From Kutzneria kofuensis (GTDB taxonomy: Bacteria > Actinomycetota > Actinomycetes > Mycobacteriales > Pseudonocardiaceae), in NCBI RefSeq assembly GCF_014203355.1, contig NZ_JACHIR010000001.1:8248038-8312037 (forward strand): a stretch of 64,000 nt of DNA, written 5' to 3'. The position numbers and the translations under genes are program-made. Shown here piece after piece: positions 32,009-63,347 of the stretch (position 1 is the stretch's first letter; each line of letters begins with the position of its first letter). The notes under the pieces are model-generated. The model made no database searches. It saw nothing but the letters and a program-made list of their open reading frames with translations, and had not been told where the DNA came from.

Positions 32009-32099
32009 ACAAGCCCTCCAGCCTCGGTAATAGACGAGTCTTCCTCATATGTCGGGCGACGGCGACCGGTCCGCGGCCGCCATCGTCCTCACGCGACTG

Positions 32100-47287: not shown

Positions 47288-48402
47288 GCCCGGTCGATGA
47301 GCTCCTCGCTTGCGGCGAGCTGCGGGCGCAGCTGGCCAAGGCCGAGGACGTCGGGGTGATCCCGGACGAGGTCTACCGGAAATGCGGCCGGCACGGGCTG
47401 TTCGGGCTCGCCGTGCCCGCGAAGTACGGCGGCACGACCCGCCCGCTGTCCGAGCGCGTCCGCGTGCATGAGGCCGTGGCGCGGCTGTCCGCCAGCCTGC
47501 ACAGCGTCCTGGTGGTCCATGAGATGGTCGTGCACGCGATCGCGCGGTTCGGCCGGCCGGAGGTGCAGACCCGGTGGCTGCCGGCCCTGGCGACCGGCGA
47601 CGCGCCGGCGGCGTTCGCGCTCACCGAACCCACGGGCGGAAGCACGTTCGACGCCCTGGGCACGACGGCCACCCCCGCCGCCGGCGGCTTCGTGCTCACC
47701 GGGTCCAAGCGCTGGGCCAGTTCCGGTCTGCGGGCACGTGTTGTGCTGGTCGTCGCCGCGACGCCGGGCGGACCGGTGGCATTGCTGGTCGACGGCGACA
47801 GCACGGGGCTGACCAGGCGACCGGCGGAGCCGCTCGCGGCGTTCCGCGCCACGTCCATGGCCGACCTGCGGTTCCACGAGTGTGTGGTGGCCAAGGGAAA
47901 CCAGTTGAGCGCGACCGGATTCGGTCTGCATCGGGTGGCGACCGGATGCCTCACCCTGGGCCGGATCCTCGTCGCGGCGGGCGCTTGCGGGATCGCGGCC
48001 GCGGCCCTGGAGACGGCCGTCGATCACGTGCGGACCCGGAAGCCCGCTGCGAAAGCGTTGGCCGATCACGAGATCGTCCGGGCGGCGATCGCGAAGGAGC
48101 ACGTCGACGTCCGCGCCGGCGTTGCCCTCACCTCGGCCGCCGCGGCCGCCTTCGACGCCGACGAGCCGGATGTGGTGCGAGAGGCGATGATCGCCAAGCT
48201 CGGCGCCACCGCGGCCGCGCGTGGGGCGACGAGCACCGCGCTGCGCCTGTACGGAGCCAGTGGCATGACGCAGGCGGCGCCGGTGCGCCGGTACGCGGCG
48301 GAGGCACAGGTCTACGACCTGATCGAGGGCGGGACCGACGTCCTGCTGTCGGCGCTGGGCGGCGACCTCGTGCGCGCAGAAGTGAGTTGGGGGTGGCGAT
48401 GA
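47284..48402 (+). CDS. Acyl-ACP (acyl-CoA-type) dehydrogenase (FkbI-like)
   Basis: 372 residues. FAD flavoprotein with FALTEPTGGSTFDALGTTAT (substrate/FAD loop), SKRWASSG, and the C-terminal YDLIEGGTDVLLSALGG. In FK520/ansamitocin-type pathways the homologue oxidises the C3 aldehyde stage to 2-hydroxymalonyl-ACP. It has ATGA overlaps on both sides. It is somewhat short, at the lower end of the family. Confidence 0.87.
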   Translation: MSPVDELLACGELRAQLAKAEDVGVIPDEVYRKCGRHGLFGLAVPAKYGGTTRPLSERVRVHEAVARLSASLHSVLVVHEMVVHAIARFGRPEVQTRWLPALATGDAPAAFALTEPTGGSTFDALGTTATPAAGGFVLTGSKRWASSGLRARVVLVVAATPGGPVALLVDGDSTGLTRRPAEPLAAFRATSMADLRFHECVVAKGNQLSATGFGLHRVATGCLTLGRILVAAGACGIAAAALETAVDHVRTRKPAAKALADHEIVRAAIAKEHVDVRAGVALTSAAAAAFDADEPDVVREAMIAKLGATAAARGATSTALRLYGASGMTQAAPVRRYAAEAQVYDLIEGGTDVLLSALGGDLVRAEVSWGWR

Positions 48403-49424
48403 CGACGCTGAAGTGCGTGATCTGGGACCTGGACGACACTCTCTGGCGAGGCACGCTGGCCGAGGGCGACGACGTGGTGCCGGACGCCGCCGCCATCGAC
48501 CTCGTCGACCGCTTGGAGCGGGCCGGCGTCGTGCAGTCCGTCGCCAGCCGCAACGACCACGACCAGGCCGAACGCCGGCTCGCCGAGATCGGCCTCGCCG
48601 ACCGGTTCGTCTACCCGGAGATCTCCTGGTCGGCGAAGTCGGCCGCCGTGCGGCGCATCGTGTCGGCGTTGAACATCGGCTCGGACACCGTGGTGTTCCT
48701 CGACGACTCGGAGTTCGAGCGCGCGGAGGTCAGCGTCGGCAACCCGGGCGTGCGGTGCCACACCCTGGCCGAGTTCCTCGAACTCGACGGCGCGCACGGC
48801 CTGGTGCCCAGCGGCGTGACACCCGACGCGGCCCGCCGGCCGGCCATGTACCGCGACGAGCAGCGCCGCCGGGCGGCCGAGGCCGAGTTCCACGGTCCGC
48901 CGGGCGAGTTCCTGGCATCGCTGGAAATGACGCTCACCGTTCGCGCCGCCGACCGGGCGGACCTGGACCGCGCGGCCGAGCTGACCGAGCGCACCAACCA
49001 GCTGAACACGACCGGCACGACGTACTCGGTCGAGGAACTGGCCGCGCTCGGCGCCCGAACCGACCGCGAGGTGCTGATCGCCGAGCTGACCGACCGGTTC
49101 GGCGACTACGGCCGCGTCGGCCTGGCCGTGCTGCGGCGAGAACCGGGCGTGTGGACCGTCGACCTCCTGCTGGTGTCCTGCCGGGTGATGGGCCGCAACA
49201 TCGGCAGCGCGCTGTTCGGTGTGATCGCGCAGCGGGCGAGCCACCAGGGGGTCGCGCTCCGCGTGCGGTACGTGCCCAACGGCCGCAACCGCCAGATGCG
49301 GATCGTCTGTTCGATGCTCGGTTTCCAGCCGGTTCCCGGCGACGGCCCGGACGTGATCCTCGAACACCAAGCACCCGGTTCGGTGACCGTTCCGGACTAT
49401 CTCAAGCTGGGAGAAGCCTCGTGA
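48399..49424 (+). CDS. FkbH-like HAD phosphatase/glyceryl transferase
   Basis: 341 residues. The HAD motif WDLDDTLWRGTL (Asp10, Asp12) and VVFLDDSEFERAEV lie in the first ~120 residues. A GNAT-like C-terminal part follows (LTERTNQLNTTGTTYSVEEL). FkbH proteins take 1,3-bisphosphoglycerate, remove phosphate and load D-glyceryl onto the discrete ACP. ATG 48399 is chosen for its 4-bp overlap with the preceding stop; GTG 48393 is possible. Its presence is the strongest evidence for a hydroxymalonyl/methoxymalonyl unit. Confidence 0.9.
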   Translation: MTTLKCVIWDLDDTLWRGTLAEGDDVVPDAAAIDLVDRLERAGVVQSVASRNDHDQAERRLAEIGLADRFVYPEISWSAKSAAVRRIVSALNIGSDTVVFLDDSEFERAEVSVGNPGVRCHTLAEFLELDGAHGLVPSGVTPDAARRPAMYRDEQRRRAAEAEFHGPPGEFLASLEMTLTVRAADRADLDRAAELTERTNQLNTTGTTYSVEELAALGARTDREVLIAELTDRFGDYGRVGLAVLRREPGVWTVDLLLVSCRVMGRNIGSALFGVIAQRASHQGVALRVRYVPNGRNRQMRIVCSMLGFQPVPGDGPDVILEHQAPGSVTVPDYLKLGEAS

Positions 49425-50062
49425 GCCACGCCTTCATCGACCGCTGGGTCGACCGATTCGACACCGTCTACGACGAGACCGCGCTCGGCCGGATTCCCTG
49501 GTTCACCGCGTCCCCGGGCATCAAGGTCATCGAGGCGGTGATCACCGGCCTGATCAAGCGCGGCGACCGGGTGGTCGACCTCGGCTGCGGCCCCGGCTGC
49601 GACGCGGTGTTCCTGGCCTCGGCCGGAGTCGACACGGTTGCCTTCGACCGGGACGAGACGGCGCTGCGCAAGGCGCGGCAGCTGGCCGACTGGGCCGGCG
49701 TGACCGTGGAGCTGGTGCAGGGCGACATCCTGGCCACCGGCCTGCCGGCCGAGTCGTTCGACGTCGTGAACGACTCCTTCGTCTTCCACAACGTGCGCGC
49801 CGAGGCCCGCGCCGCCTACGCCGGCGAGGCCGCGCGCATCCTCAAACCGGGCGGGACGCTGCTGGTCAGCGCGTTCTCGGACCGGATGGTGGACGGCACC
49901 GGCCCGCTGCGGATCTCCGCGGCCGAGCTGTTCGACACGTTCCGGCCGGCGGTGTGGGAGTGCCTGTCCCTGGAGAACTACCGCAACCTGCCGACCGAGG
50001 CCCGGCCCGGCCAGTTCCACTGGTTCGGGGTGTTCCGCAAGCGAGAGGAACCGACCGCATGA
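49421..50062 (+). CDS. SAM-dependent methyltransferase
   Basis: 213 residues. Class I Rossmann methyltransferase with the SAM motif VVDLGCGPGCDAVFLASAGV, acidic residue in TVAFDRDET, and DVVNDSFVFHNV. It occupies the place where FkbG-type O-methyltransferases complete methoxymalonyl-ACP, but it is a general class I type and not an obvious FkbG orthologue. It might instead methylate another intermediate. GTG start overlapping the FkbH stop. Confidence 0.82.
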   Translation: MSHAFIDRWVDRFDTVYDETALGRIPWFTASPGIKVIEAVITGLIKRGDRVVDLGCGPGCDAVFLASAGVDTVAFDRDETALRKARQLADWAGVTVELVQGDILATGLPAESFDVVNDSFVFHNVRAEARAAYAGEAARILKPGGTLLVSAFSDRMVDGTGPLRISAAELFDTFRPAVWECLSLENYRNLPTEARPGQFHWFGVFRKREEPTA

Positions 50063-51009
50063 CTCACGCACCTGGCGGTGACCACCTGTGGCGGTCGGGC
50101 CGGATCGTGCCCTCGGCCGAGGCCACCGTGCACGTCCGCTCCGTCGGCCACGCGTCCGTGTCCGCGGTGTTCGAGGGCGTGAACGCCTACCGGGACGACA
50201 GCGGCGGGCTGAACGTGTTCCGGCTGGAGGAGCACCTGACGCGACTGGCGGACTCGGTGCGGCTGTCGCACCTGACGATGTCGTACACAGTGGACGAACT
50301 CTGTGCGGCGACGGTCGAGCTGCTGCGCCGCAACGAGGTCCGCGACGACGTGCACATCCGGCCGTGGGCGTTCGTCGAGGGCAATCCGATCGAGCAGATG
50401 GTGCCGGCCGGCGCCGGCTGCGAAGTGGTGATCGACTGTTGGCCGTTCCGCAGCCGGCTGGCCGAACCGGTCAGCCGCATCGCCGCCGTCACGTCGTGGC
50501 GGCGGGTGGCGTCCGAGTCCATGCCGCCCCGGATCAAGGCGTTCGCGAACTACCACAACGGGCGGCTCGGCAACATCGACGCGCAGAGCCGGGGCGCGGA
50601 CTGGCCGATCTTCCTGGACGACCGGGGCCGGGTCACCGAGAGCTCCGGCGCGACGATCGGCCTCGTCCGCGACGGTGTGTTCCACACTCCCGGCCTGGAC
50701 TGCGGAATCCTGGAGGGCGTCACCAGGGACACCGTGCTCCGGCTGCTGCGCGACGAGCTGGACGTGCCGGTGCGGGAACACGACCTGACCCGTGCCGACC
50801 TGCACCTCGCCGACGAGGTGATGTTCATCGGCACCTCGGCGGAGGTCCTGCCGATCACCGTGCTGGACGGCACGCGGGCGGCCGACGGCGTGATCGGGCC
50901 GGTCACCACCGCGTTGCGTGAGGAGTACGCCGCGGTGCTGCGGGGCCGCCGGCCCCGGTACAAGCACTGGCTCACGCCGGTCTGGGTGGCGGAACCGGCC
51001 GGCCGATGA
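50059..51009 (+). CDS. Class IV (branched-chain-type) aminotransferase
   Basis: 316 residues. Fold type IV PLP enzyme: the probable PLP Lys is in PRIKAFANYHNGRLGNIDAQ; VTESSGATIGLVRDG, GILEGVTRDTV and EVMFIGTSAEVLPI are the usual conserved blocks. It could provide an amino acid, or an amino group on a keto intermediate. 4-bp overlaps with both neighbours. Confidence 0.87.
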   Translation: MTHAPGGDHLWRSGRIVPSAEATVHVRSVGHASVSAVFEGVNAYRDDSGGLNVFRLEEHLTRLADSVRLSHLTMSYTVDELCAATVELLRRNEVRDDVHIRPWAFVEGNPIEQMVPAGAGCEVVIDCWPFRSRLAEPVSRIAAVTSWRRVASESMPPRIKAFANYHNGRLGNIDAQSRGADWPIFLDDRGRVTESSGATIGLVRDGVFHTPGLDCGILEGVTRDTVLRLLRDELDVPVREHDLTRADLHLADEVMFIGTSAEVLPITVLDGTRAADGVIGPVTTALREEYAAVLRGRRPRYKHWLTPVWVAEPAGR

Positions 51010-51827
51010 CCTCTCGCGTCGTGGCCGGGGCGGGCGTGCCGCACGTCCCGGTCTTCCCCCAACTCGTGCGCGACGGCGACCAGGACGTCGCCGGCCGTTA
51101 CGGGGCGGTCGAGGCGGTGCTGGCCGCCGCCGAACCGGACCTGCTGGTCGTCGTCGCCAACGATCACCTCAACGCCTATTTCCTCGACCGGCTGCCGACG
51201 TTCGCGATCTCGCTGGGCGAGGCGGCGTCGGGGCCGCTGGACGCCGTGCCGTCGGTGGCCGCCCATGACGTGCCGGTCGACGCGGGCAGCGCGGCGGCGC
51301 TGGCCGCCCGGCTGGTCGACGCCGGATTCGACCTGACGTTGTGTCGGGACGCGGTGCTCGACCACAGCGTCGTCGTGCCGCTGCACTTCCTCAACGGCCG
51401 CCACCTGCCGGTGGTGGTGCTGCATGTCAACGGTCTCGTCGCGCCGCTGCCCTCCGCCCGGCGCTGTCACGAGCTGGGCTGCGCGCTGCGCCAAGCGGTG
51501 TCGACGTTGCCAGGGGACCGCCGGATCGCCGTGGTGGCCAGTGGCAGCTTCTCCCAGGACGTCGGTGGGTCGCGGGTGGATCCGGGCCGGTCGTGGTCGG
51601 TGCCTCGGCCGGACTGGGCGGAGCAGGTCGCCGCCATGCTGACCGTCGGCGATGTCGACCAGCTGGTCCGCCGCGCCACCCCGCAGATGCTGGCCGAGGC
51701 CGGGTCGGTGGCCGGCGAGCTGCTGAGCTGGATCACGGTCGCGGGCGCGGTGGGACGCGATCTGGCGCCACGGGTGGACTACCGGGCGGGCGAGGCGTTC
51801 GCGTTCGTCGCGTGGACGAAGGAGTAG
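51006..51827 (+). CDS. LigB-like class III extradiol dioxygenase family protein
   Basis: 273 residues. Ligand positions of LigB can be aligned: the first His in GVPHVP, the second in ANDHLNAYF, the Glu in GELLSWITVAGAVG; DHSVVVPL is also conserved. The usual catalytic-base segment (GGLSH) reads GSFSQ, so the His is replaced by Gln. It may therefore bind metal but use altered chemistry. The downstream gene carries the LigA-like partner fused to an SDR. No catechol-forming gene was seen, so the substrate is unknown. Confidence 0.78.
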   Translation: MTSRVVAGAGVPHVPVFPQLVRDGDQDVAGRYGAVEAVLAAAEPDLLVVVANDHLNAYFLDRLPTFAISLGEAASGPLDAVPSVAAHDVPVDAGSAAALAARLVDAGFDLTLCRDAVLDHSVVVPLHFLNGRHLPVVVLHVNGLVAPLPSARRCHELGCALRQAVSTLPGDRRIAVVASGSFSQDVGGSRVDPGRSWSVPRPDWAEQVAAMLTVGDVDQLVRRATPQMLAEAGSVAGELLSWITVAGAVGRDLAPRVDYRAGEAFAFVAWTKE

Positions 51828-51829: not shown

Positions 51830-52834
51830 GTGTCCGTTGCCGAAGTGGAGAAGTTCTGTCATCGGCTGAACGCCGACCCGGACCTGCTCGCACTGGCCCG
51901 GTCCGACCTGGACGGAGCGCTGTCGCGGTTCGGCCTGACCGAGCGCGAGCGGCAAGCCGTGCGGACCGGCGACGTCGGGCTTCTGCTTGCGGACGGGGTG
52001 CACCCGGTGCTGCTGGTGCGGTTGCACGTCCATGGCATCGCCGGGCTGACCGAGGCCGAGTACTCCCGCCGCGTGCGTGCCGTCCGGGACGTCACAGTCG
52101 ACCGCCGTGATGAGCCGGCACGTCCGTACTGCCTGGTGACCGGTGCGACCGGAGGACTCGGCAGGGAGCTGGCAGCCGCCTTCTGCCGGGCCGGCTACCA
52201 CCCGGTTCTCACCGCCCGGGACACAGACGCCCTCGACGCCCTCGTCGCCGACCTGCGGCCGCTGGGGCCTGCCACCGCCATCCCCGCCGACATCACCGAT
52301 CCGGTGAGCGTGGTGGAGCTCGGCGAGCGCGTCCGTGCGGTGACCGACGAGTTGGCCGCCGCGGTGGCCAACGCCGGCATCGCCCTCGACCAGAGTTTCC
52401 TGCAGCCACGGGAACCGCTGGCGCGGTGGCGGGAAATGGTCCTGCTCAACGTGTTCGGCACGGCTGCGACCGCCAGGTTGGCGTTGCCGATGCTGGTGCC
52501 GGCCCGGGGCCGGCTCGTGCTGGTCGGCTCCGTCGTCGGCCGCACGGTGGTGCCGGGTGACCTGTACTCGGTGACCAAGAACGCCGTGACGGCGCTGGCA
52601 GCGGCCGTGCGCGCCGAGGCCGAGCCCGTGGGCGTCGGCGTCAGCGTGGTGCAGCCCGGCCTCATGGACACCGCGATGGTCAGTCCGGACCGCAGATCGC
52701 GGCCGATGCTCGCACCGCGCGAGGTCGCCAGGCAGATCGTCCGTCTCGTGGTCGAACGAGGCATTCAGGCGGACGAGGTGGTGCTGCGGCCGGTCGCCGG
52801 CCGCGACGTGGTCACCGAATCGATCGGAGGGTAG
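51830..52834 (+). CDS. LigA-like domain fused to short-chain dehydrogenase/reductase
   Basis: The GTG at 51830 follows AAGGAGTAGCC, two bases after the LigB stop. 334 residues. Residues ~1-85 match the LigA (small subunit) pattern of helices (DPDLLALARSDLDGALSRFG, LTEREREA-like, GVHPVLLVRLHVHGI). Residues ~100-334 are a classical SDR with TGATGGLG, NAG, active-site Ser in VLVGSVVG and YSVTKNA (Tyr/Lys). The fusion suggests that the ring-opening-type step and a reduction or oxidation are coupled. I do not know a described fusion of this kind. Confidence 0.85.
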   Translation: MSVAEVEKFCHRLNADPDLLALARSDLDGALSRFGLTERERQAVRTGDVGLLLADGVHPVLLVRLHVHGIAGLTEAEYSRRVRAVRDVTVDRRDEPARPYCLVTGATGGLGRELAAAFCRAGYHPVLTARDTDALDALVADLRPLGPATAIPADITDPVSVVELGERVRAVTDELAAAVANAGIALDQSFLQPREPLARWREMVLLNVFGTAATARLALPMLVPARGRLVLVGSVVGRTVVPGDLYSVTKNAVTALAAAVRAEAEPVGVGVSVVQPGLMDTAMVSPDRRSRPMLAPREVARQIVRLVVERGIQADEVVLRPVAGRDVVTESIGG

Positions 52835-52836: not shown

Positions 52837-54126
52837 GTGCCGGTGCGAATTCTCGGTCGGGAGGGCGAGATCCTGGTCGTCGAGCCGACCAGGATCGGGG
52901 TCGTCGGCTGTGGCGGGCACGCCTATCGGAACGTGTTGCCGTCGGTGCGCCAGATCCCCGAGGCGATCATGGTTGCCTTCTGCGACCTGCATCGCGACAA
53001 GGCCGAGCTCTACGCTCGCTCGCTCGGCACGGACGCGGTGGCCCACGAGGACGTCGACGAGATGCTCGACCAGGGCGGTCTCGACGCCGTGGTGGTGGTC
53101 GTCGGATTCGACGACGAGACGGGCGAGCCGCTGTACCCGCCCGTCGTGGAGCGCATCCTGCGTCGCGGCGTGCCGGTGTGGCTGGAGAAGCCGCCCGCGG
53201 CCGACGTGAGCGGGGTGCGCCGGATGGCGGCGGCAGCGGCCGAGGGCGGCACGTTCGCTCAGGTCGGCTTCAAGAAGGTGTTCTCCCCCGCGGTGCACAG
53301 GCTGGGACAGCTGATCGCGCAACCCGAGTTCGGGCCGGTCACCCAGTACAGCTACAGCTACGACGTGGACATGCCGGCGCAGATCGGCAACCTGCGCTCA
53401 CCGTCCGGCCGTCGGTTCCTCGACGACTTCGTGCACGTCGCCTCGGTGATCGACCAGCTGTTCGGCTCGCCCGCCCGGGTGCAGACGGTGCGCTCGCCGT
53501 CCGGCGCCGGCGTCGTGCTGAACGTGCACGCCGACGGCATCGTCGGCACGGTGAACCTGGCCAACTCCCGGTCCGGGCTGGCGCCGGTGGAGCGGCTGGA
53601 GATCGTCGGCACCGGCGCCAGCGCATCCCTGGAGAACGGGGCGTACCTGCGGTACTACCCGCCCGGCACGCGTGGCCCGTACGGCACGAGCACGAGCTAT
53701 CTGCCTCCGGTGACCGACCAGGCGCCTGCCGACCTGGGACCGCGCGTCTGGGAGCCGGAGTTCTCGCTGGGCAACCTGCACGGCGGCTCCCTGTTCGTGC
53801 AGGGCTACTTCCACCAGATGCGCGCATTCGTGGACGCGGTCCGCGCGGGCACGCCGCCCGAGCGCTGCGGACTGGACGCCGCCGCCCGGGTCATGGCCTA
53901 CCTCGACGCTCTCGTCGGCGACTTCGACAGCTGGCGGCCCGTCGCCGGCCAGCCGGACGTGGCGCACACCCACGAGGTCGACGAGCCGCAGGAGTTCAGC
54001 TGCCCGGACAGCGGCCGCGCGATGGTGCTCAAGGACGGGTGGAACTATGTCTGCCGGGACTGCGGGCGGACCCGGTCCGGCCAGTCGGCGGACGCGATCA
54101 CCTGCGGCGCCGGGGTGCGGACGTGA
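52837..54126 (+). CDS. Gfo/Idh/MocA oxidoreductase with C-terminal zinc ribbon
   Basis: 429 residues from GTG. Rossmann domain VVGCGGHAYRNVLPSV, the EKP motif (VWLEKPPAADVSG), then the alpha/beta C-terminal domain. After residue ~385 an added module carries FSCPDSG and YVCRDCGRT, a CxxC-type knuckle of a rubredoxin-like or zinc-ribbon fold, with HTHEVDEPQ before it. This extension is uncommon in the family and may bind a protein partner or carrier. Substrates are typically sugars or polyols, here unknown. 4-bp overlap with the E1 gene. Confidence 0.82.
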   Translation: MPVRILGREGEILVVEPTRIGVVGCGGHAYRNVLPSVRQIPEAIMVAFCDLHRDKAELYARSLGTDAVAHEDVDEMLDQGGLDAVVVVVGFDDETGEPLYPPVVERILRRGVPVWLEKPPAADVSGVRRMAAAAAEGGTFAQVGFKKVFSPAVHRLGQLIAQPEFGPVTQYSYSYDVDMPAQIGNLRSPSGRRFLDDFVHVASVIDQLFGSPARVQTVRSPSGAGVVLNVHADGIVGTVNLANSRSGLAPVERLEIVGTGASASLENGAYLRYYPPGTRGPYGTSTSYLPPVTDQAPADLGPRVWEPEFSLGNLHGGSLFVQGYFHQMRAFVDAVRAGTPPERCGLDAAARVMAYLDALVGDFDSWRPVAGQPDVAHTHEVDEPQEFSCPDSGRAMVLKDGWNYVCRDCGRTRSGQSADAITCGAGVRT

Positions 54127-56054
54127 CCGGGCCGGACCGCCGCCGGCTGGTCCGCGGCGCCCTGCTCGTGCGGCGGGTCGAGGAGCGGCTGCTCGAGCTG
54201 TACGCCCGGGGCGAGGTGCCCGGCACCGTGCACACCGCGATCGGGCAGGAGTTCAGCGCGGTCGCCGTCGCCGATCATCTGGTCGCCTCGGACAAGGTCC
54301 TGTCCAACCACCGCTGCCACGGGCACTACCTGGCCGTGACGGGCGACGTGCCCGGATTGGTCGGTGAGGTGCTGGGCCGGGCCAACGGGGTCAACCAGGG
54401 CCGGGGCGGCAGCCAGCACCTGCACACCGACCGGTTCGTGTCGACCGGGGTGCAGGGCGGCTGCGTGCCGATCGCCGCGGGCCTCGCGATGGCGAACCGG
54501 GACGACGGGATCGCGGTGTGCTTCATCGGGGACGGCACGCTCGGCGAGGGCGTCGTGTACGAGGTGTTCAACCTCGCCTCCCTGTGGCGCCTGCCGGTCC
54601 TGTTCGTCGTGGAGGCGAACGGATACGCCCAGTCGACCCGGACCGAGGACGCGCTCGCCGGCACCATCGCCGGCCGGGCCGAGGCGTTCGGCATCCGCCA
54701 CGGCCAGGCCGACACCTGGCACTGGGAGGAGCTGTGGGCCACGGCACGAGACGCGGTGCGCGCTGTGCGCTCGGGCGCCGGGCCGTTCGTCCTCGAGGTG
54801 CGCACCGCCCGGCTGGGTGCCCATTCGAAGGGCGACGACGACCGCGACCCGGCGGAGATCGCTCGGCTGCGGTCCCGTGATCCGTTGACCACGCTGATCG
54901 ACGCCGACGACCCCGATGTGCTCGCCGTCCGCGACGAGGTCGAGCGCGTGGTGGACAACGCCACGGCGGCGGCCCTCGCCGCCGGTCCGGGCACCGTCCC
55001 GGTGCCGGCCGAGCCACGGCGGGACATCACGTGGTCGAAGGCGGACGCACCGCGCGCCCGGTTCGTCGACGGACTGCGGTCCGCGCTGGCGGACCTGATG
55101 CGTTCCCGGCCCGACGCGTACCTGATCGGCGAGGACGTCCGCGCCCCGTACGGCGGCGCGTTCAAGGTGACCGGCGGACTGTCGACGCTGCACCCGGACC
55201 GGGTCCGGAACACGCCGATCTCGGAGGCGGCCATCGTCGGTGTGGCCACCGGCCTCGCCCTGGGCGGCGCGCTCAGCCTGGTCGAGGTCATGTTCGGCGA
55301 CTTCGTCACGCTCGCGGCCGACCAGTTGGTCAACCAGGCGGCCAAACTGGGCTTCCTCGCCGGGCAGGGGCCGGACGTGGTGCTGCGGACGCCGATGGGA
55401 GGCGGCCGCGGGTACGGCCCGACGCACAGCCAGTCGCTCGAGCGGATGTTCCTCGGTGTGCCCGGGCTGCGTGTGCTGGCGCACAACGGCCTGGCCGCGC
55501 CGGAACTCGTCGTCGGCGAGGTCGCGCGGGGCGGCACCGGACCTACGCTGCTGGTCGAGAACAAGCAGTTGTACGGGCGTGTGCCGGCGGAGTCGCTGCC
55601 CGCCGGGTTCACGCTGCTGAGGTCGGACGAGCGGTTTCCGACGATGTGGTTGCGGCCCGCCCGGCCGGCGACTGTCACGCTGCTCGGGCACGGTGGCATC
55701 TGCCACGAGCTGGTGCTCGCGTGCGAGCGGTTGTTCACCGAGCACGATGTGATCGCCCAGGTGATCAGCCCGACCCAGTTGTACCCGCTCGACTTCGCCG
55801 GCCTGCGCGAGGCCGTCGGCTCCGCGCCGGTCCTGGTGATCGCCGAGGAGGGGCAGGGCTTCGCCGGCTTCGGGGCCGAAGTCGGCGCGCGGGTGGCCGA
55901 ACGGGGACTGCCGACGGTGGTGCGGCGGGTCGCGGCGGCGCCGCACGGAATTCCCGCCGGCCGGGTCGCCGAGCAGCACGCGCTGCCGGGGGTCGACGAC
56001 GTCGTGGACGCGGCGCTGGACGGAATCAAGGCGGTGAGCACCGATGCCCGTTGA
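54123..56054 (+). CDS. Thiamine-dependent 2-oxoacid dehydrogenase E1, alpha-beta fusion
   Basis: 643 residues from GTG. The alpha half has the ThDP motif CFIGDGTLGEG ... VVEANGYAQ. The beta half begins near residue 305 (RARFVDGLRSALADLMRSRP, LIGEDVRAPYGGAFKVTGGL, and TPMGGGRGYGPTHSQSLE). In central metabolism alpha and beta are often separate; here they are one chain. With the following E2 and carrier protein it forms a decarboxylase/acyl-transfer set. No E3 is in the cluster. Such trios in natural-product loci can move a two-carbon glycolyl unit to a carrier protein (naphthyridinomycin/quinocarcin systems, recalled). Confidence 0.87.
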   Translation: MTGPDRRRLVRGALLVRRVEERLLELYARGEVPGTVHTAIGQEFSAVAVADHLVASDKVLSNHRCHGHYLAVTGDVPGLVGEVLGRANGVNQGRGGSQHLHTDRFVSTGVQGGCVPIAAGLAMANRDDGIAVCFIGDGTLGEGVVYEVFNLASLWRLPVLFVVEANGYAQSTRTEDALAGTIAGRAEAFGIRHGQADTWHWEELWATARDAVRAVRSGAGPFVLEVRTARLGAHSKGDDDRDPAEIARLRSRDPLTTLIDADDPDVLAVRDEVERVVDNATAAALAAGPGTVPVPAEPRRDITWSKADAPRARFVDGLRSALADLMRSRPDAYLIGEDVRAPYGGAFKVTGGLSTLHPDRVRNTPISEAAIVGVATGLALGGALSLVEVMFGDFVTLAADQLVNQAAKLGFLAGQGPDVVLRTPMGGGRGYGPTHSQSLERMFLGVPGLRVLAHNGLAAPELVVGEVARGGTGPTLLVENKQLYGRVPAESLPAGFTLLRSDERFPTMWLRPARPATVTLLGHGGICHELVLACERLFTEHDVIAQVISPTQLYPLDFAGLREAVGSAPVLVIAEEGQGFAGFGAEVGARVAERGLPTVVRRVAAAPHGIPAGRVAEQHALPGVDDVVDAALDGIKAVSTDAR

Positions 56055-57057
56055 GATCAGGTTGGAGCAGCTGAGCGCGAACGATCCCACCGCGCGGATC
56101 ACGGAGTGGCTGGTCGAGGACGGGGCTGCCGTCGCGGTGGGCGACGCGATCGCCGCCGTGGAGACGGCCAAGGTCAGCGTCGACGTGGTCAGTCCGCACG
56201 CCGGCATCGTGGTGCGCAGCGCCGCCGTCGCGGACGTGATCGGGGTGGGGGACCTGCTCGCGTACGTCTGCGCCGACCAGGCCGAGGTCGACGCCATGGT
56301 CCGTGATCGCGCCGAGCCGGTCGAACCGGAGGCGCGCACCGGGCGGTACTCCGCCGCGGCGGCCCGCTACATGACCGAGCACGGCATTCCGGACAGCGCC
56401 TTCGCCGACTACGACCTGGTCACGCTCGCCGACGCACAGGAGGTTCACGGCCGGCTGACCCGGCCGACCGCGACCAAGTCGCTGGAGGTCGCGCGGCTGA
56501 CGGAGGCCAACGTGCTCAATGCCTCCTTGTCGGTCCAGTTCGCCGGCGAACGGATCCGGGCCGACGCGGACACCGCGGATCTGCCCACCGTTCGGCTGCT
56601 CGGCCGCGTGGTCGCCGCGACGGCCCGGGCGCTGGCCGACTTCCCGCAACTCAACGGCTACTACGACGACGGCGTCCGGCTTCGGTCGACCATCGACATC
56701 GGGGTGGCCATCGATCTCGGCGACGGGCTCAAGGTCGGTGTCGTGCGCCAGGACGAGCCGGTCGAGGACCGGTTGATGGAGCTGGTGTCCCGCTACGTCG
56801 ACGGCACCCTCACACCGGCCGACGTGGCCGAGTCGAGCCTGACCATCAGCGACTTGTCCATGGAGAACGTGCTGTTCTTCCAACCACTGCTCAACCACAG
56901 GCAGGCCCTGGCCCTCGGCGTCGGCGGCGACCTGGAGCTGCCCGGGCAGCCTTTGACGCTGACCGCCACGTTCGACCACCGGGTGACCAGTGGTCGTGAG
57001 GTCAGCGCGTTCCTGGCGACGATCCGTCGTCATCTGGCCGTAGGAGGGACATCGTGA
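56044..57057 (+). CDS. Lipoyl E2 acyltransferase
   Basis: 337 residues, overlapping the E1 end by 11 bp. N-terminal lipoyl domain with lipoyl-Lys43 in VETAKVSVDV. A short peripheral-subunit-binding segment lies near residue 100 (GRYSAAAARYMTEHGIPDSA). The catalytic domain has His312 in FDHRVTSGREVSAF, with the usual HRxxDG altered to HRVTSG. It should accept the acyl group from E1 and pass it to a thiol: CoA or, given the adjacent carrier gene, phosphopantetheine. Confidence 0.86.
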   Translation: MPVEIRLEQLSANDPTARITEWLVEDGAAVAVGDAIAAVETAKVSVDVVSPHAGIVVRSAAVADVIGVGDLLAYVCADQAEVDAMVRDRAEPVEPEARTGRYSAAAARYMTEHGIPDSAFADYDLVTLADAQEVHGRLTRPTATKSLEVARLTEANVLNASLSVQFAGERIRADADTADLPTVRLLGRVVAATARALADFPQLNGYYDDGVRLRSTIDIGVAIDLGDGLKVGVVRQDEPVEDRLMELVSRYVDGTLTPADVAESSLTISDLSMENVLFFQPLLNHRQALALGVGGDLELPGQPLTLTATFDHRVTSGREVSAFLATIRRHLAVGGTS

Positions 57058-57299
57058 CGGCTGAGGCATCGCCGGACCTGGTCGCGGACTGCGTCGCGCT
57101 GTGGCGCGAACTGCTGGGCCGGGACGACGTGGACGCGGACTCGAACTTCTTCACCGAGGGCGGCCGTTCGCTGCTGGGCGCCCGGCTGGTGAGCAGGGCT
57201 CGCACCCTCACCGGGGTGCGGGTCGGGCTCAGGGTGCTGATCGAGGCGCCGACGCCGCGCCGGTTCGCCGCGGAACTCGCCGCGGCCGCGGTCGACTGA
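57054..57299 (+). CDS. Discrete carrier protein (ACP/PCP)
   Basis: 81 residues with the carrier signature FFTEGGRSLLGARL; the modified Ser follows GGR (usually GGD or GGH). The ATG/GTG start overlaps the E2 stop, so translational coupling is likely. Candidate acceptor for the E1/E2-derived acyl group. The stop codon lies inside a strong hairpin. Confidence 0.83.
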   Translation: MTAEASPDLVADCVALWRELLGRDDVDADSNFFTEGGRSLLGARLVSRARTLTGVRVGLRVLIEAPTPRRFAAELAAAAVD

Positions 57300-57318: not shown

Positions 57319-58587
57319 TCAGCCGACCGACCGCATCAGCTCCTGTGCCACCGCCAGATACCGGGCGCCGAGTGCCTCGGTCGTCTCGATCCGGTCGGCG
57401 TCGGCCGAGCAGTGCATCAGGGCGACGGACGGATCCTGGTCCGCGAGCACGCGGACGAGCAGGCTCGCGCCCATCCCGGACTCCGACCGGAACGCGGTCG
57501 GCTCGGCGCGCACTCCGGTCAGGGGAAAGGGAATGTCCAGCGCGGCGGTCGCCAGGATGAGCAGGCCCTGCCGGTAGAGATCGGCGTCCGGCCACACCGT
57601 CCTGGTCAACAGCCGCGGCGGGCAGTTCGCGTGGTCCAGGCAGTCGAACAGCGACTCCATGAAGTTCTCGGCCAGCTCGGCCACGTCGCCGTGCAGGGCG
57701 GTCCGAACGTAGATCTCGGTGGTGCACATGCCCACCACCGAGTCGTCCTCGTCGAGATCGCGGTTGGCGCAGTTCATGGTGATCACGCAGCTGTCCGCAC
57801 CGCTGAGGGACCGCGTCGCCGCCAGCAGGATGCCGGCGTACACGGCGAAGGGCGTGACGCAGTGGTCGGCGGCGAACTTGCCGGCCGATGCGGCGAAGCC
57901 GGGCGGCAGTTCCACTCGCGTGGTGTGCAGGCGGTTGCTCGTCGCGTCCTGCCCGAACGCGGGTAGGGGATTGCGGGCCGGCTCCGGGGTGGGGCCGATG
58001 TGCGACCGCCAGTACGAGACCAGCCGGTCCATCTCCGCCGCGTCCAGGGTTTCCCGCTGCTCGACCGACCACGCGGAGAACTGCTTGGCCCGTACGACCG
58101 GCGGTTCGGCGGCACCGCGGACATGGCAGTCGTACCGCTCGCACAGGTCCTGCAGCAGCCGGGTGGCCGACCGGCCGTCGGCCACCCGGTGGTCGACGGC
58201 GAGCACGAACACGTGGTCGGCGGGGCCGAGCCGGATCAGGCCCGCACGGGCCATGGGCGCCACCGCCGGGTGAACGGCCTCGACGACGGCCTCGTGCAGG
58301 CGATCCATCGCCGCGTCCAGGTCCGAGCCGTCTTCGACGAGCAGCGGGATCCGCGCCGACTCGGCGATGGTGGCGGTGAGACGACTACCATCCACCTGGA
58401 ACGACCACCTCAGCGCGTCGTGCAGCACGGGCAGGTCGGCGAGTGCGCCGCGCAGTGCGTCGACCGAGAGGTCACCGGTGATCCGGTAGGACAGGCACAC
58501 CGGACGGCAGGGGCGGTCCCAGACGTGCCCGTGGGAGTCGAAGTACTGCTCCTGCATGATCGCCGGTCGGATCGCCTCGGTGGCCAC
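57319..58587 (-). CDS. Stand-alone condensation-domain protein
   Basis: 422 residues from GTG, with GGAAAGG eight bases upstream. Condensation/acyltransferase fold. The HHxxxDG motif reads VDHRVADG, so the first His is Asp while the second, catalytic, His and DG remain. A later conserved segment has VITMNCANRDLDED. A free C domain can join two carrier-bound units or release a product onto an amine. It is convergent with the main operon and divergent from the LysRS gene. Confidence 0.83.
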   Translation of the reverse strand: MATEAIRPAIMQEQYFDSHGHVWDRPCRPVCLSYRITGDLSVDALRGALADLPVLHDALRWSFQVDGSRLTATIAESARIPLLVEDGSDLDAAMDRLHEAVVEAVHPAVAPMARAGLIRLGPADHVFVLAVDHRVADGRSATRLLQDLCERYDCHVRGAAEPPVVRAKQFSAWSVEQRETLDAAEMDRLVSYWRSHIGPTPEPARNPLPAFGQDATSNRLHTTRVELPPGFAASAGKFAADHCVTPFAVYAGILLAATRSLSGADSCVITMNCANRDLDEDDSVVGMCTTEIYVRTALHGDVAELAENFMESLFDCLDHANCPPRLLTRTVWPDADLYRQGLLILATAALDIPFPLTGVRAEPTAFRSESGMGASLLVRVLADQDPSVALMHCSADADRIETTEALGARYLAVAQELMRSVG

Positions 58588-58693
58588 GTCGGTCGCCTTT
58601 CCACAGTGGTCGGTGCGGGGCCGGTCGCCGGATGGCGCAGGTGGCCCGGGATAATGGGTGTCATCGGTGTTCGTGAAGGGATGTGTGCGGCAA

Positions 58694-60346
58694 GTGGTTC
58701 AGTCGGTGGAGGCGGATTGGGTCTCGCGGTTCGCGGACGAGGTTGTCGCGGCGGCCGATCGCAGGGCCCCGGGAGAACCGATCGTGTGCGCGTCGGGACT
58801 GAGCCCGTCGGGTCCGATCCACCTGGGCAACCTGCGTGAGGTGATGACGCCGCACCTGGTCGCGGACGAGATCGCCCGCCGCGGCCGCGACTGCGAGCAC
58901 ATCATCTCGTGGGACGACTACGACCGGTTCCGACGCGTGCCCGCTGGCATCGACCCGTCCTGGGCCGAGCACATCGGCAAGCCGCTGACCTCGGTGCCCG
59001 CCCCGCCCGGCAGCGAGTACCCGAACTGGGCCGAGCACTTCAAGGCGGCCATGATGACGGCGCTCGACCAGCTCGGCGTGCGCTACCGGGGCATCAGCCA
59101 GACCGAGATGTACACCAGCGGCGCCTACCGCGACCAGGTGCTGCTGGCCATGAGCAAGCGCGCCGAGATCGACGCCATCCTCGCCCGGTACCGCACCAAG
59201 AAGCCGGTGGAGGACCCGGACGCCTCCGGCGACGAGCGCACCGGCGCGGCGTACTACCCGTTCAAGCCGTACTGCACGAGCTGTGGCCGCGACCTGACCA
59301 CGATCACCCGGTACGACGACGAGACGACCGAGATGACCTACACCTGCGAGTGCGGGCACAGCGAGACGGTGCTGCTCTCGGAGTTCACCAGCGGCAAGCT
59401 GGTGTGGAAGGTCGACTGGCCGATGCGGTGGGCGTACGAGGGCGTGCTGTTCGAGCCCTCGGGGGTCGACCACTCGTCGCCGGGCTCCTCGTACGAGGTC
59501 GGCGGCCAGATCGTGGGCCAGGTCTTCGGCGGCACCCAGCCGATCGGCCCGATGTACGCGTTCGTCGGCATCACCGGCATGGCGAAGATGAGCAGTTCGG
59601 CCGGCGCCGTGCCGACGCCGGGGGACGCCCTCAGGATCATGGAGCCCGCGGTGCTGCGGTGGCTGTACGCCCGGCGCCGGCCGAACCAGTCCTTCAAGAT
59701 CGCGTTCGACCAGGAGATCTACCGGTTGTACGACGAGTGGGACGCGCTCACCAACCGGATCGGGCAGGGTACGGCGTCGCCGGGTGACGCGGCGGCGTAC
59801 GACCGCTCGGTCCGCACCGCGGCCGTCGAGCTGCCGGAGACCCCGCGCCGGATCGCCTATCGCACGCTGGCGTCGATCGTCGACATCACCACCGGCGACG
59901 AGCAGCAGACCCTGCGGATCCTGGGCGGGGTGGACACCCAGGATCCGATCACCGACCTCGAGCAGGTCCGGCCGCGGATCGACTGCGCGCAGCACTGGGT
60001 CGACACGTACATGCCGGCCGAGCAGCACACCCGGGTGCTGGCCGAGCCGGACACCGATCGGCTGTCCCGGCTGGACGAGACCGAGCAGCAGATGATCAAG
60101 ACACTGCTGGCCCGGCTCACCGACGAGTGGTCGCTGGACGGGCTGACCACGCTGGTCTACGGCGTGCCCAAGCTGATGGCCGGCCTGCCCATGGACACGC
60201 CGCCGACGCCGGAGCTGAAGGTGGCCCAGCGCGCCTTCTTCGTCCTGCTCTACCAGCTGCTGGTCGGTAGCGAGACCGGGCCGCGGTTGCCCACGCTGCT
60301 GCTCGCCGTCGGCGCCGACCGGGTGCGCACCCTCGTGGGCGGCTGA
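58694..60346 (+). CDS. lysK: Class I lysyl-tRNA synthetase
   Basis: 550 residues from GTG 58694 (VVQSVEADWVSRF). This is preferred because homologues begin a few residues before DWVSRF; GTG 58685 and 58658 are in frame. Class I signature LSPSGPIHLGNLRE (HIGH) and KMSSSAG (KMSKS) are present, a zinc-type YCTSCGRD/CECGHS pair lies near residue 200, and a C-terminal alpha-helical anticodon domain follows. It attaches lysine to tRNA-Lys. Because it sits among biosynthetic genes next to a GluTR-like protein, it may supply Lys-tRNA to the pathway or act as a resistant copy. Some actinomycetes use class I LysRS as a housekeeping enzyme, so a pathway role is not proven. Confidence 0.9.
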   Translation: MVQSVEADWVSRFADEVVAAADRRAPGEPIVCASGLSPSGPIHLGNLREVMTPHLVADEIARRGRDCEHIISWDDYDRFRRVPAGIDPSWAEHIGKPLTSVPAPPGSEYPNWAEHFKAAMMTALDQLGVRYRGISQTEMYTSGAYRDQVLLAMSKRAEIDAILARYRTKKPVEDPDASGDERTGAAYYPFKPYCTSCGRDLTTITRYDDETTEMTYTCECGHSETVLLSEFTSGKLVWKVDWPMRWAYEGVLFEPSGVDHSSPGSSYEVGGQIVGQVFGGTQPIGPMYAFVGITGMAKMSSSAGAVPTPGDALRIMEPAVLRWLYARRRPNQSFKIAFDQEIYRLYDEWDALTNRIGQGTASPGDAAAYDRSVRTAAVELPETPRRIAYRTLASIVDITTGDEQQTLRILGGVDTQDPITDLEQVRPRIDCAQHWVDTYMPAEQHTRVLAEPDTDRLSRLDETEQQMIKTLLARLTDEWSLDGLTTLVYGVPKLMAGLPMDTPPTPELKVAQRAFFVLLYQLLVGSETGPRLPTLLLAVGADRVRTLVGG

Positions 60347-60351
60347 GCCCG

Positions 60352-61548
60352 TCATGTGATCCGGGCCCTGGCATCGGCCAGCTTGGTCGCCACCGCGTCC
60401 GCGTCCGGGCCGGTGGCGATCACCCAGCCGACCCGGCCCCAGGGATCCTCAGGCGGAGGCGCCACCACCTCGCCGACCGCACGGGTCTCCCGGACCTCGA
60501 CGACGTCGAGGTCCGGAGGCACGGTGAGCCCCCGGAACGGACCGGCTGCCCGGGGGTACAGGAAGGCGATGCCCGCCGCCCGTCGCGGGGACGGAGGCGC
60601 GGCCGGTTCGCGCCCGGCGACCACCTCGGCCAGCGCCGTGCCGACCCGCAGCCCCGAGGACATGCCGGCGAGGCGGGGGAGCGCCTCGCCCGCTGGCCGG
60701 CCGTTCACCTCGAGCACGCGCGGCTCGCCGTCGACCCAGCGGAGGTCGACGTTGGCGATCGTCCGGTTCAGGCCGCACTCCACCGCCGCGAGGCACCCGG
60801 CGTGTTCGACGGCCCGGAGCGCCTCCGGGGCGGCGATGCCACGGCCCACCACGCAGCCGGTGTTGATCGCCTGCGGCGCGAAGCCCTTGGTGATCCGACC
60901 GGTGAACAGCGCGCCGGCGCGGCCGTCGAGCACCCAGCAGTCGACGCTGAACTCGACTCCGTCGAGGAACTCCTCGACGATGGCATCGCCGATCGGGTCC
61001 ATGCCGCCGCCCCTCGCATCCAGCCCGAACGCGACCGCGGCCGCGAGCTCCGCCTCGTCGGCCACGACGGTCACGCCCAGGCTGCCCGACATGTTGCGGG
61101 GCTTGACCACGACCGGATAGCCGATGGCGGCCGCCGCGGCAGCCGCGGCCTCGACGTCGCGGACGACCACGGACCGGACCGGGCGCAGGCCGGCGGCCTC
61201 GTTCAGCCGGCTGCGCTGGGCGTGCTTGTCCCGGACGACCAGGCTGGCTGGGTACGGCAGGCCCGGCACGCCGGTGTGTCGGGTCACCTCGCCGACCAAC
61301 GGCAGCAGGATCTCCTCGTAGCTGAGCACGCCATCGACACCGGGGGCCAGCTCGGCCACTGTTCGCACCACGGACGGCAGATCCGTGGGGTCGATCGACA
61401 TCGCCCGGGCCACGAACGGCAGCTGCCACCCGATCTCGCCGGGCTGCAGCAGGGTGACGGCGGCGGCCTCGCCCAGCTCCGCCAGCAGTTCACGGTGCCG
61501 TTGCTCGGATCCTGAGCCGATCAGGATGACGGCGGGCCGGCGGCTCAC
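60352..61548 (-). CDS. ATP-grasp family ligase
   Basis: 398 residues from GTG, overlapping the end of the upstream fusion gene by 4 bp (GTGA). ATP-grasp fold: YPVVVKPRNMSGSLGVTVV (first nucleotide strand), DAIVEEFLDGVEFSVD, and the metal-binding NVDLRWVDGEPRVLEVNGRP. N-terminal pre-ATP-grasp domain with ILIGSGSEQ. Such enzymes activate a carboxylate as acyl phosphate and join it to an amine or thiol. Coupling to the GluTR/AspRS-like protein suggests that they act on the same intermediate. No C-terminal tRNA or carrier domain is present. Confidence 0.85.
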   Translation of the reverse strand: MSRRPAVILIGSGSEQRHRELLAELGEAAAVTLLQPGEIGWQLPFVARAMSIDPTDLPSVVRTVAELAPGVDGVLSYEEILLPLVGEVTRHTGVPGLPYPASLVVRDKHAQRSRLNEAAGLRPVRSVVVRDVEAAAAAAAAIGYPVVVKPRNMSGSLGVTVVADEAELAAAVAFGLDARGGGMDPIGDAIVEEFLDGVEFSVDCWVLDGRAGALFTGRITKGFAPQAINTGCVVGRGIAAPEALRAVEHAGCLAAVECGLNRTIANVDLRWVDGEPRVLEVNGRPAGEALPRLAGMSSGLRVGTALAEVVAGREPAAPPSPRRAAGIAFLYPRAAGPFRGLTVPPDLDVVEVRETRAVGEVVAPPPEDPWGRVGWVIATGPDADAVATKLADARARIT

Positions 61549-63347
61549 CCCTGGATCCCTTCGCGACCCGGCTGCGTGACACGGGAGCGGTCCGTCAGCC
61601 GGTCCAGGGACAGCCGAAAGCCGCCGTGCGGAGGGGCCTGGTCGAGGTGGGCGATGAACGAGTCGTACCGCTGCGCGGGCAACCCGGCCAGCGCCACCTG
61701 CTTGCGTAGCTCATGGGAATCGGTCTCGTGCAGGCCGCCGTCACCGACCCGGTGCCCGTCCAGGACGACGTCGAAGGTGGCGGTCCGTCCCACCGCACTG
61801 CCCCGGGCTGCGGCGAACCGCTGCCGGGACGCCGGGTGGTTGGTGACCACGAACACCCGCTCCCCGATCAGGTCGCCGAGCAGGCGGCGGTGCGCGAACG
61901 ACAGCTCGATCCCGTAGTCGACGTCATGCCCGGCCCGGTTGAGCCGGTCGAGCGCCTCGCCGTAGTCCAGGGTGGACGCCGGCCCGTCCGCCATCGGAAC
62001 GGCCAACCGGACCAGGTCCACAGCGCGCCGCGCCAGATCGCTCAGGTCCACCGGTGCACGCATCTCCACCTGGAGCATCGTCGTTTCCTCGCCGTCCCAG
62101 ACGGGACCGATCTCGTAGACCTTGTCCATGCCGCCGACCACGGCGAGCTGGTGGTGCAGCTGCGCGGACCGCCGGCGGGCCAGCCCCTCCGTGACGAGGT
62201 CGGCGGGCACCAGGCACGGTGTCTGGATCTCGGCGAACCCCTCCGCCGCCAGCTGGTCTCGCCAGTGCGTCAGGACACGTGCGCGGTGCGCCAGCAGCCC
62301 GGGGTCGTCTGGTGGTCGCCAGCTGACGACGGGTGGTGGTGCGGTCAGCGCCGTGATGACCTCCTCGGTCCACTCGCCGACGATCCGGCGCGCCTTGTTC
62401 ACCGACTGCTTGCGTGCGGACAGGTTGCTGGCGGCGTCCTCGGACAGGTGGTCGATGCCGACGACCTCTGCGGTCGTCGTGGCGTCGAGCTGCCGGGTGA
62501 TCGACGGCGAGGACATGTCGATCAGCAGGTGCCGCTCGGTCAGGTGGCCGAACAGCTTGCCCGCGTACGCCACCGTCTCCGGAGTGTTGGTCAGGCACAG
62601 CACGATCACGTCCGCCTCGGCGATGCGGTCGAGATCGCCCCAGTCGACCTCGCGCGCGGCCCCGGCCTTGCCGGGCGTCCGGTTGCACGCGAACACCTCG
62701 TGGGCGGTCTCCTTGCCGAGGATCTCGGCGATCAGCCGACCCGTGCGGCCGAGCCCGACCACGGCGACGGACCGGGCCGACGTGACCCGGGCGATGCGTG
62801 AGCAGGCGACCCGCTCCAGGGAGACGTTGCCCTGTTGCAGCGAGGTGGTGGTGCGGACCGCGTGCAGCAGCGGACGCAGCCGGCGCGCGAGGAGGGTGAA
62901 CGCGGAGTCCTGTCGTCCGGCCGTGCGGGCCTCGGCGAGGCCGGCGACGACCTGGGCGTAGACCTGGGAATCGCCCAGCACCACGCTGTGCAGGCCGACC
63001 GCGACCTCGCCGAGGAACTCGACGGCCTTGGCCCCGCAGTGGTGTTCGACCCGCGGCAGGTGCGGGCCGAGTCCGGGCGCGAGATCGAGCCACCGTCGCA
63101 GCAGCAGATCGCGGGCGAAATGCCGGTCGGTCGGCACGGCGAAGGTCGCCGCCACCATGATCGCGTTGCACTTGTCGATCACCGCGAGGTCGTCGACTGG
63201 GGCGCCGAGTCCACGGCGGAACAGTTCCGAACGGGACGTCTCGTTCCCGGCCGAGATGTGCGCGGCGGCCAGCTGGTCGAGCGCGTCCCGGTTCAGCTTG
63301 CGATGTTCCAGGGCCACGACCTGGAAGCGCGTGCCCGACTCCCCCAT
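61545..63347 (-). CDS. Fusion of glutamyl-tRNA reductase-like and AspRS-like (class II) domains
   Basis: 600 residues from ATG 63347 (GGGGGGCGG upstream; an in-frame ATG at 63434 is less likely). Residues ~1-335 follow glutamyl-tRNA reductase: candidate catalytic Cys60 in VIDKCNAIMV, then HHCGAKAVEFLGEVAVGLHS, VVLGDSQVYAQVV and the NADPH-type motif VAVVGLGRTGRLIAEIL at ~195-210. Residues ~345-600 follow the class II AspRS core: motif 1 FAEIQTPCLV, RRSAQLHHQLAVVGGMDKVY, FVVTNHPASRQRF, and motif 3 GGFRLSLDRL. Motif 2 is damaged: where AspRS has FRAE plus a loop with H..EF, this has PVWDGEETTMLQVEM, so the ATP-contacting Arg and about nine residues are missing. There is no N-terminal anticodon-binding OB domain. 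It thus looks like a thioester-forming/reducing enzyme with a tRNA-binding pseudo-synthetase. Confidence 0.87.
   Translation of the reverse strand: MGESGTRFQVVALEHRKLNRDALDQLAAAHISAGNETSRSELFRRGLGAPVDDLAVIDKCNAIMVAATFAVPTDRHFARDLLLRRWLDLAPGLGPHLPRVEHHCGAKAVEFLGEVAVGLHSVVLGDSQVYAQVVAGLAEARTAGRQDSAFTLLARRLRPLLHAVRTTTSLQQGNVSLERVACSRIARVTSARSVAVVGLGRTGRLIAEILGKETAHEVFACNRTPGKAGAAREVDWGDLDRIAEADVIVLCLTNTPETVAYAGKLFGHLTERHLLIDMSSPSITRQLDATTTAEVVGIDHLSEDAASNLSARKQSVNKARRIVGEWTEEVITALTAPPPVVSWRPPDDPGLLAHRARVLTHWRDQLAAEGFAEIQTPCLVPADLVTEGLARRRSAQLHHQLAVVGGMDKVYEIGPVWDGEETTMLQVEMRAPVDLSDLARRAVDLVRLAVPMADGPASTLDYGEALDRLNRAGHDVDYGIELSFAHRRLLGDLIGERVFVVTNHPASRQRFAAARGSAVGRTATFDVVLDGHRVGDGGLHETDSHELRKQVALAGLPAQRYDSFIAHLDQAPPHGGFRLSLDRLTDRSRVTQPGREGIQG

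Follow-up and report, generated by a model that had tools for sequence, protein, structure and literature searches.

A GluTR-like/AspRS-like fusion protein beside a class I lysyl-tRNA synthetase and an ATP-grasp ligase in a putative peptidyl nucleoside cluster of Kutzneria kofuensis

The window analysed here is a stretch of 64,000 nucleotides from Kutzneria kofuensis (contig NZ_JACHIR010000001.1, forward-strand positions 8,248,038 to 8,312,037), part of which, from about 35,959 to 63,347 counted from the first letter of the window, holds a putative biosynthetic gene cluster. At its far end, on the minus strand at 61545-63347, a single open frame of 600 amino acids joins a half resembling glutamyl-tRNA reductase (GluTR) to a half resembling aspartyl-tRNA synthetase (AspRS). 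The stop of this fusion gene overlaps by four bases the start of a gene for an ATP-grasp ligase of L-amino-acid-ligase-like type (60352-61548, minus; 398 aa; its PF13535 and LAL_C2 matches exceed their cut-offs), an arrangement in which the two genes are probably translated together. Beyond it lies a class I lysyl-tRNA synthetase (LysRS; 58658-60346, plus strand, GTG start, 562 aa; a start at 58694 proposed in the initial annotation of this DNA is in the same frame). That annotation had read the three genes as a tRNA-dependent biosynthetic module. The genes themselves are all real, with profile scores above the cut-offs, and the best explanation of the fusion appears to be that of a specialised biosynthetic enzyme, not a heme enzyme. 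In the reading we prefer, it is a reductase of acyl or aminoacyl thioesters, dependent on Cys and NADPH, in a cluster for a peptidyl nucleoside of the amipurimycin/miharamycin type; to this joint claim we would assign a probability of about 0.4.

In a Pfam search the one frame of the fusion matched PF05201 (GlutR_N, 36.1 bits against a cut-off of 27, covering Cys60), PF01488 (34.0 bits; 24.3) and PF00152 (tRNA-synt_2, 73.6 bits; 25). Third-position GC is 0.92 in the GluTR-like half (residues 1-345; 62313-63347, minus) and 0.90 in the AspRS-like half (residues 346-600; 61548-62312, minus), so that both look coding. An alternative in-frame ATG upstream, at 63434, would give a protein of 629 aa. 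As annotated at the outset, a GluTR-derived half with the catalytic Cys and an NADPH motif is fused to a class II synthetase core within a biosynthetic cluster, and Cys60 (codon 63168-63170) and the H..G..AV..GLxS stretch lie at the positions claimed for them. The comparison with 30 actinobacterial GluTRs, the HemA of K. kofuensis among them, shows which parts of the active site are kept: the catalytic Cys followed by Asn (C51>C60, N52>N61), the GL.S.V.G..Q...Q core (G118, L119, S121, V123, G125, Q128, Q132) and the NADPH Rossmann motif (GLGRTG and NRT). The Arg that follows Cys-Asn in at least 95% of these GluTRs is lost (R53>A62), the core His of the family, which we take to be His99 of the E. 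coli enzyme, is replaced by Phe (H100>F111), and there are further changes at T50>K59, E55>M64 and D109>H120. In the GluTR of M. kandleri it is this Arg that recognises the substrate glutamate; with that Arg lost, a substrate other than glutamate would be expected for the fusion.

A heme role for the fusion was considered and rejected. A normal hemA lies elsewhere in the genome (C1:4614107-4615357), and the pocket residues and dimer domain of the fusion differ. The GluTR dimerisation domain, PF00745, was not found in the fusion by the Pfam search, and its sole match in the genome (C1:4615055-4615354) lies within the true hemA. The NCBIfam hemA model gives the fusion 90.7 bits, below its cut-off of 209.55.

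The place of the dimerisation domain is taken by the synthetase core, which follows the GluTR half directly; the fusion has no Pfam match to an anticodon-binding OB domain. The nearest family of this half is the archaeal-type AspRS (AspRS2), at 76.5 bits against a cut-off of 353. It retains the Pro of motif 1 (Pro377), the sequence PPHGGF and the Arg of motif 3 (Arg583). The Arg of motif 2 has become Asp418 and the loop that follows is deleted; a Glu of the ATP site has become Arg533 and the Asp-binding Arg has become His540. The half probably does not activate an amino acid, and the charging of tRNA by it is unlikely because the motif 2 Arg and loop are lost. Elsewhere in the genome, another AspRS-like gene (L010, C1:1607335-1608225; 321.1 bits, below the cut-off of 368.4) is likewise closest to the archaeal type, and a longer AspRS-like gene (L008) is also present.

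GluTR is the textbook example of an enzyme that reduces an aminoacyl-tRNA instead of leaving it to translation, one of the few cases in which tRNA serves a purpose other than making protein (PMC7242693). Its known mechanism, as outlined there and in PMC3778395, passes through a Cys thioester that is then reduced. By analogy, an activated acyl or aminoacyl group would be transferred to Cys60 of the fusion, forming a thioester, and would then be reduced to an aldehyde by NADPH held in the Rossmann domain; the chemistry would be that of GluTR, the substrate something other than glutamate. The donor to Cys60 could be an aminoacyl-tRNA, Lys-tRNA being the first candidate, or a carrier-protein thioester. 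The AspRS-like half, charging no tRNA, would fill the place of the missing dimerisation domain, perhaps also helping to hold the substrate, while the ATP-grasp enzyme would join an amino acid to the nucleoside core and the class I LysRS would most likely protect lysine charging in the producer. We infer, and do not observe, each of these catalytic steps, the dimer role, the protection and the type of product. If the reading is true, aminoacyl-tRNA reduction would reach into natural products through a descendant of GluTR that has taken on a different substrate.

The same residues bear on two other accounts of the fusion. Its Cys60 might hand the thioester-bound group to an amine of the nucleoside with no reduction at all, as might be expected of a protein that has lost the family His and Arg yet retained Cys60 and Asn61, and for a product type that needs amide bonds. 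We regard such a transferase as improbable, since the NADPH motif (GLGRTG and NRT) is retained and amide bonds could already be made by the ATP-grasp ligase and the condensation domain of the cluster. Or the protein may be no enzyme but a decoy or sensor, its synthetase-like body binding the product so as to protect the cell or regulate the pathway. The degenerate ATP site and the loss of the GluTR His would fit, as would the nearby class I LysRS, another candidate for protection; the retention of the GluTR catalytic Cys and NADPH motif makes this very improbable.

Within the searches made, the fusion is rare. Searches with E limits of 1e-20 or 1e-15 matched only the K. kofuensis genome itself, which served as positive control, among 390 genomes of the family and among 394 in a sample of the class; in the genus of G018 none of 392 genomes matched, in a search run without a positive control. 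An exact short-peptide pattern scan of 84,980 species genomes returned 74 stretches, none of them a relative of the fusion. A further scan, for GluTR-like stretches with a residue other than Arg after Cys-Asn, was confined to GC-rich codon choices with G or T opening the third codon, and gave 17 stretches, in which the matched Cys-Asn was never the catalytic pair of GluTR; pattern scans of this kind miss AT-rich codon use and distant relatives. In a plasmid collection nine records match part of the fusion and none covers 80% of it. PADLOC gave no defence-system match for the fusion, the ATP-grasp ligase or the class I LysRS. A GluTR/AspRS-like fusion, as the initial annotation had supposed, is not described in the literature searched, at the level of titles and abstract openings and with few subscription papers; nor, within the same scope, is a GluTR-like natural-product enzyme.

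The class I LysRS is in itself an ordinary enzyme. It scores 382.9 bits with PF01921 and 322.3 bits with NCBIfam TIGR00467 (cut-off 147.55), is 76% identical to that of G455, another genome of the family, and carries the signature motifs SPSGPIHLGN and KMSSSAG unchanged from it. In a tree it falls inside the family's class I LysRS, beside G455 and G402 (99/97 support for the trio), on a branch of 0.13. What is unusual is its company. It is the only full class I LysRS of the genome (two further PF01921 matches are below cut-off), and the genome encodes a class II LysRS as well, its frame about 500 aa long. Seven genomes of the genus were searched: all seven have class II (in the other six in frames of 499 to 557 aa) and one, by virtue of the window copy, has class I. 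Of 200 genomes sampled from the family, class I is present in 25, our own included. Class II was sought at E 1e-60 in 19 of the other 24 (G415, G422, G427, G431 and G576 being left out); seven showed none, three had it in frames of 290-518 aa, and nine had it only in frames above 1,100 aa, perhaps LysX-type fusions, we presume, though so long an open frame may also hold an ordinary gene. Class I thus looks like the lone, housekeeping-like LysRS in at least seven genomes of the family, G455 and G402 among them, and the window copy was probably acquired by horizontal transfer. In G402 the class I LysRS (L036:11006-12538) adjoins, by eye, a LysR-type regulator and a LysE-type exporter. A cluster shared around class I LysRS in the relatives was looked for, by comparing 19 window proteins with 16 class I LysRS loci at E 1e-5, and was rejected: besides LysRS there were only two matches, the ATP-grasp ligase at 29% in L035 and the A-T protein of the cluster at 39% in L050, both discounted.

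An extra synthetase in a cluster that is unchanged, probably transferred and of another class is a usual sign of self-protection, and the window copy has that character: an extra LysRS within the cluster, of a class unlike the housekeeping enzyme. Because the genus relies on class II and this additional copy is unmodified, self-protection seems at least as likely a role for it as the supply of Lys-tRNA. A protective role is suggested because the organism's own enzyme belongs to class II and would be what the product hits; if the extra copy does protect, the target of the product would be class II LysRS. Class I LysRS, for its part, reportedly excludes lysine analogues from the genetic code. 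For products of this kind a synthetase target is reasonable to consider, since amipurimycin carries cispentacin and a cispentacin analogue inhibits IleRS (PMC10698177).

The alternative is that the class I LysRS makes Lys-tRNA for the fusion, Cys60 taking the lysyl group and NADPH reducing it to lysinal for the pathway. Both halves of the fusion derive from enzymes that act on aminoacyl-tRNA, the loss of the glutamate-recognising Arg leads one to expect another amino acid, and the LysRS is the second gene over from the fusion. We nevertheless consider such a tRNA-dependent synthase unlikely. The class I LysRS is canonical, and a housekeeping class II enzyme would already supply Lys-tRNA; parts of the two parent enzymes that contact tRNA (the dimerisation domain of GluTR, and the OB domain and motif 2 loop of AspRS) are missing from the fusion; and the window has no tRNA gene. 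(None was found in L012, L013, L156 or L157 either, and Rfam gave no match at gathering score in 35000-64000.) A fuller version of the idea is distinctly unlikely: it would make the fusion a new non-heme, tRNA-dependent enzyme that supplies the peptidyl nucleoside with an amino aldehyde made from Lys-tRNA or another aminoacyl-tRNA, with an altered pocket and a dead class II core in place of the dimer domain, and would have the transferred class I LysRS both feed it and shield the cell from a product directed at class II LysRS.

Evidence on the proposed three-gene module comes from a sister cluster in another genome of the genus, G618 (L156:187-19401 and L157:1-2466). Eleven genes are common to it and the window, nine of them in the same order: the glycosyltransferase (37% identity), kinase (42%), FAD oxidoreductase (53%), A-T protein (51%), KS-AT-T module (42%), 3-hydroxyacyl dehydrogenase (56%), acyl-CoA dehydrogenase (41%), FkbH (56%) and methyltransferase (51%), the last two sharing one frame in G618. 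The ATP-grasp ligase (36-40%) and UDP-glucose dehydrogenase (43%) lie further along and in another relative order. The best non-self match of the ATP-grasp ligase in 390 genomes is to this cluster (2e-70; the next is 1.5e-54). The stretch compared was 38 kb, at E 1e-6, and within it there is no counterpart of the window's LysRS I, fusion, aminotransferase, LigB, LigA-SDR, Gfo/Idh, E1, E2 or C domain; the fusion and LysRS I have no match anywhere in the G618 genome. As the ATP-grasp ligase occurs there with neither LysRS nor fusion, a module of the three genes as stated is rejected. What stands of the initial interpretation is the GluTR-derived Cys/NADPH half on a class II core; the module is not supported as stated, charging by the AspRS-like half is unlikely, and the LysRS proves to be a canonical, unaccelerated extra copy, for which self-protection fits as well as substrate supply.

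The G618 cluster has genes of its own, for a HalD-type halogenase (at the edge of the stretch compared), a split transketolase, a short-chain dehydrogenase, a LOG-type gene and an MFS transporter. The halogenase is presumably of the same type as BesD. BesD chlorinates lysine (PMC8659048), and by that analogy there is a hint, though no more, that the sister product takes lysine as its amino acid. The two clusters offer a ready comparison for the question of which genes set the variable part.

The remainder of the window cluster lies on the plus strand, save for one gene. It begins with a UDP-glucose dehydrogenase (35959-37275), followed by the glycosyltransferase, which resembles cytosylglucuronate synthase, with the APH-type kinase and FAD oxidoreductase (37553-41127), and by the A-T protein and KS-AT-T module (41124-46195). 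In the plasmid collection the glycosyltransferase was unmatched at 1e-10 and the FAD oxidoreductase at 1e-20. A set of methoxymalonyl-ACP type (46192-50062) comprises the 3-hydroxyacyl dehydrogenase, an acyl carrier protein recognised by eye at 47039-47287, the acyl-CoA dehydrogenase, FkbH and the methyltransferase. A class IV aminotransferase (50107-51009), nearest to the branched-chain type and below that model's cut-off, precedes a member of the LigB-type extradiol dioxygenase family (51021-51827), which adjoins a short-chain dehydrogenase (SDR; 51845-52834) fused with a LigA-like domain that scores 24.2 bits, short of its cut-off of 25.3. A Gfo/Idh/MocA oxidoreductase (52837-54126) has a Cys-rich C-terminal tail that by eye resembles a metal-binding knuckle. 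Next come a fused E1 alpha/beta dehydrogenase dependent on thiamine diphosphate (ThDP; 54123-56054), an E2-like acyltransferase with a lipoyl domain (56044-57057), a stand-alone carrier protein (57054-57299, PF00550) and, on the minus strand, a stand-alone condensation domain with an HRVADG motif (57319-58587). The E1/E2/carrier set presumably resembles the two-carbon supply of naphthyridinomycin.

These genes bring in the remaining account of the fusion, in which Cys60 is loaded from a thioester on the carrier at 57054, on a polyketide synthase (PKS) carrier or on CoA, and NADPH reduces it with no tRNA involved. To our knowledge no GluTR relative acts on an acyl-carrier substrate, which counts against the idea, and it would leave the fused synthetase core with nothing obvious to do. 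In its favour are the carriers at 57054 (PF00550) and 47039 (by eye), the E1/E2 pair and the stand-alone condensation domain, as well as the fact that the GluTR intermediate is itself a thioester (PMC7242693). As an account that excludes tRNA altogether we hold it to be unlikely; the reading we prefer allows either donor.

Assignment of the cluster to the amipurimycin/miharamycin type of peptidyl nucleoside is provisional. In the miharamycin and amipurimycin pathways, as outlined in PMC11188666, MihI makes guanylglucuronate and a PKS helps to build the high-carbon sugar, and a split transketolase has been proposed to add the branch in this class (PMC12247030). The window has the UDP-glucose dehydrogenase and the A-T and KS-AT-T extension that such a cluster would need, with the fused E1 where G618 has the split transketolase. 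Several points weigh against the reading as a whole. The glycosyltransferase reaches only 45.6 bits with the cytosylglucuronate synthase model TIGR04467, far under the curated cut-off of 300, and no split transketolase, LOG or HalD match appeared among the window-cluster proteins scanned. The likeness to amipurimycin and miharamycin is drawn from published descriptions and not from the mih and amc sequences; it is because of this and of the weak transferase match that the product type is given provisionally. On the side of the enzyme, the loss of the core His (H100>F111) might mean that the reductase chemistry is gone. The Arabidopsis GluTR alignment begins at fusion residue 51 and includes Cys60, but that of M. 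kandleri spans only residues 105-327, starting past the Cys region, which makes this part of the fusion very divergent. Finally, with no relative of the fusion found, selection on Cys60 and the NADPH site has nothing to be compared with.

Just past the window end (L012:6561 to L013:6398) lies a second cluster, of nonribosomal peptide synthetase (NRPS) and PKS genes, with a stand-alone protein of the LanB-like N-domain (PF04738) and then ABC transporter genes; in make-up it resembles the sna cluster, whose SnaE makes a peptide bond (PMC11212132). Within the window, 26537-32456 holds genes of plant cell-wall degradation (a GDSL esterase, a glucuronoyl esterase, GH30 and GH62, the last in a short frame of 118 aa), with a DDE transposase among them at 28732-29880. 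The first part of the window, 1-10119, continues with L014 as a single open frame of more than 10,000 codons, by guess an NRPS.

Set beside known systems, the fusion shares with GluTR (HemA/GtrR) the Cys nucleophile and its Asn, the GLxS..G..Q core and the NADPH Rossmann motif, but lacks the Arg after Cys-Asn and the core His and has a synthetase core in the place of the dimerisation domain. With archaeal-type AspRS2 it shares the class II core with motif 1 Pro, PPHGGF and motif 3 Arg; unlike that enzyme it is without the OB domain, the motif 2 Arg and loop and the Asp-binding Arg. The class I LysRS is full-length with intact motifs, as in other genera of the family, and differs in being an extra copy beside class II, inside a biosynthetic cluster. 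PEARLs use tRNA. An aminoacyl-tRNA borrowed for small-molecule assembly would be common ground with the PEARLs and with the tRUEs of L/F-transferase type, as described in PMC11212132 and PMC10548850, though the proteins come from other families: neither SnaE, which makes a peptide bond, nor the tRUE, an L/F-transferase, is related to GluTR. With the amipurimycin and miharamycin clusters, so far as their published descriptions extend, the window has in common the supply of UDP-glucuronate, a gene with a weak likeness to a glucuronate nucleoside synthase, an NRPS/PKS extension and a ThDP enzyme; what may set it apart are its LysRS I, the fusion, LigB, LigA-SDR, the E1/E2 pair with its carrier and the stand-alone C domain.

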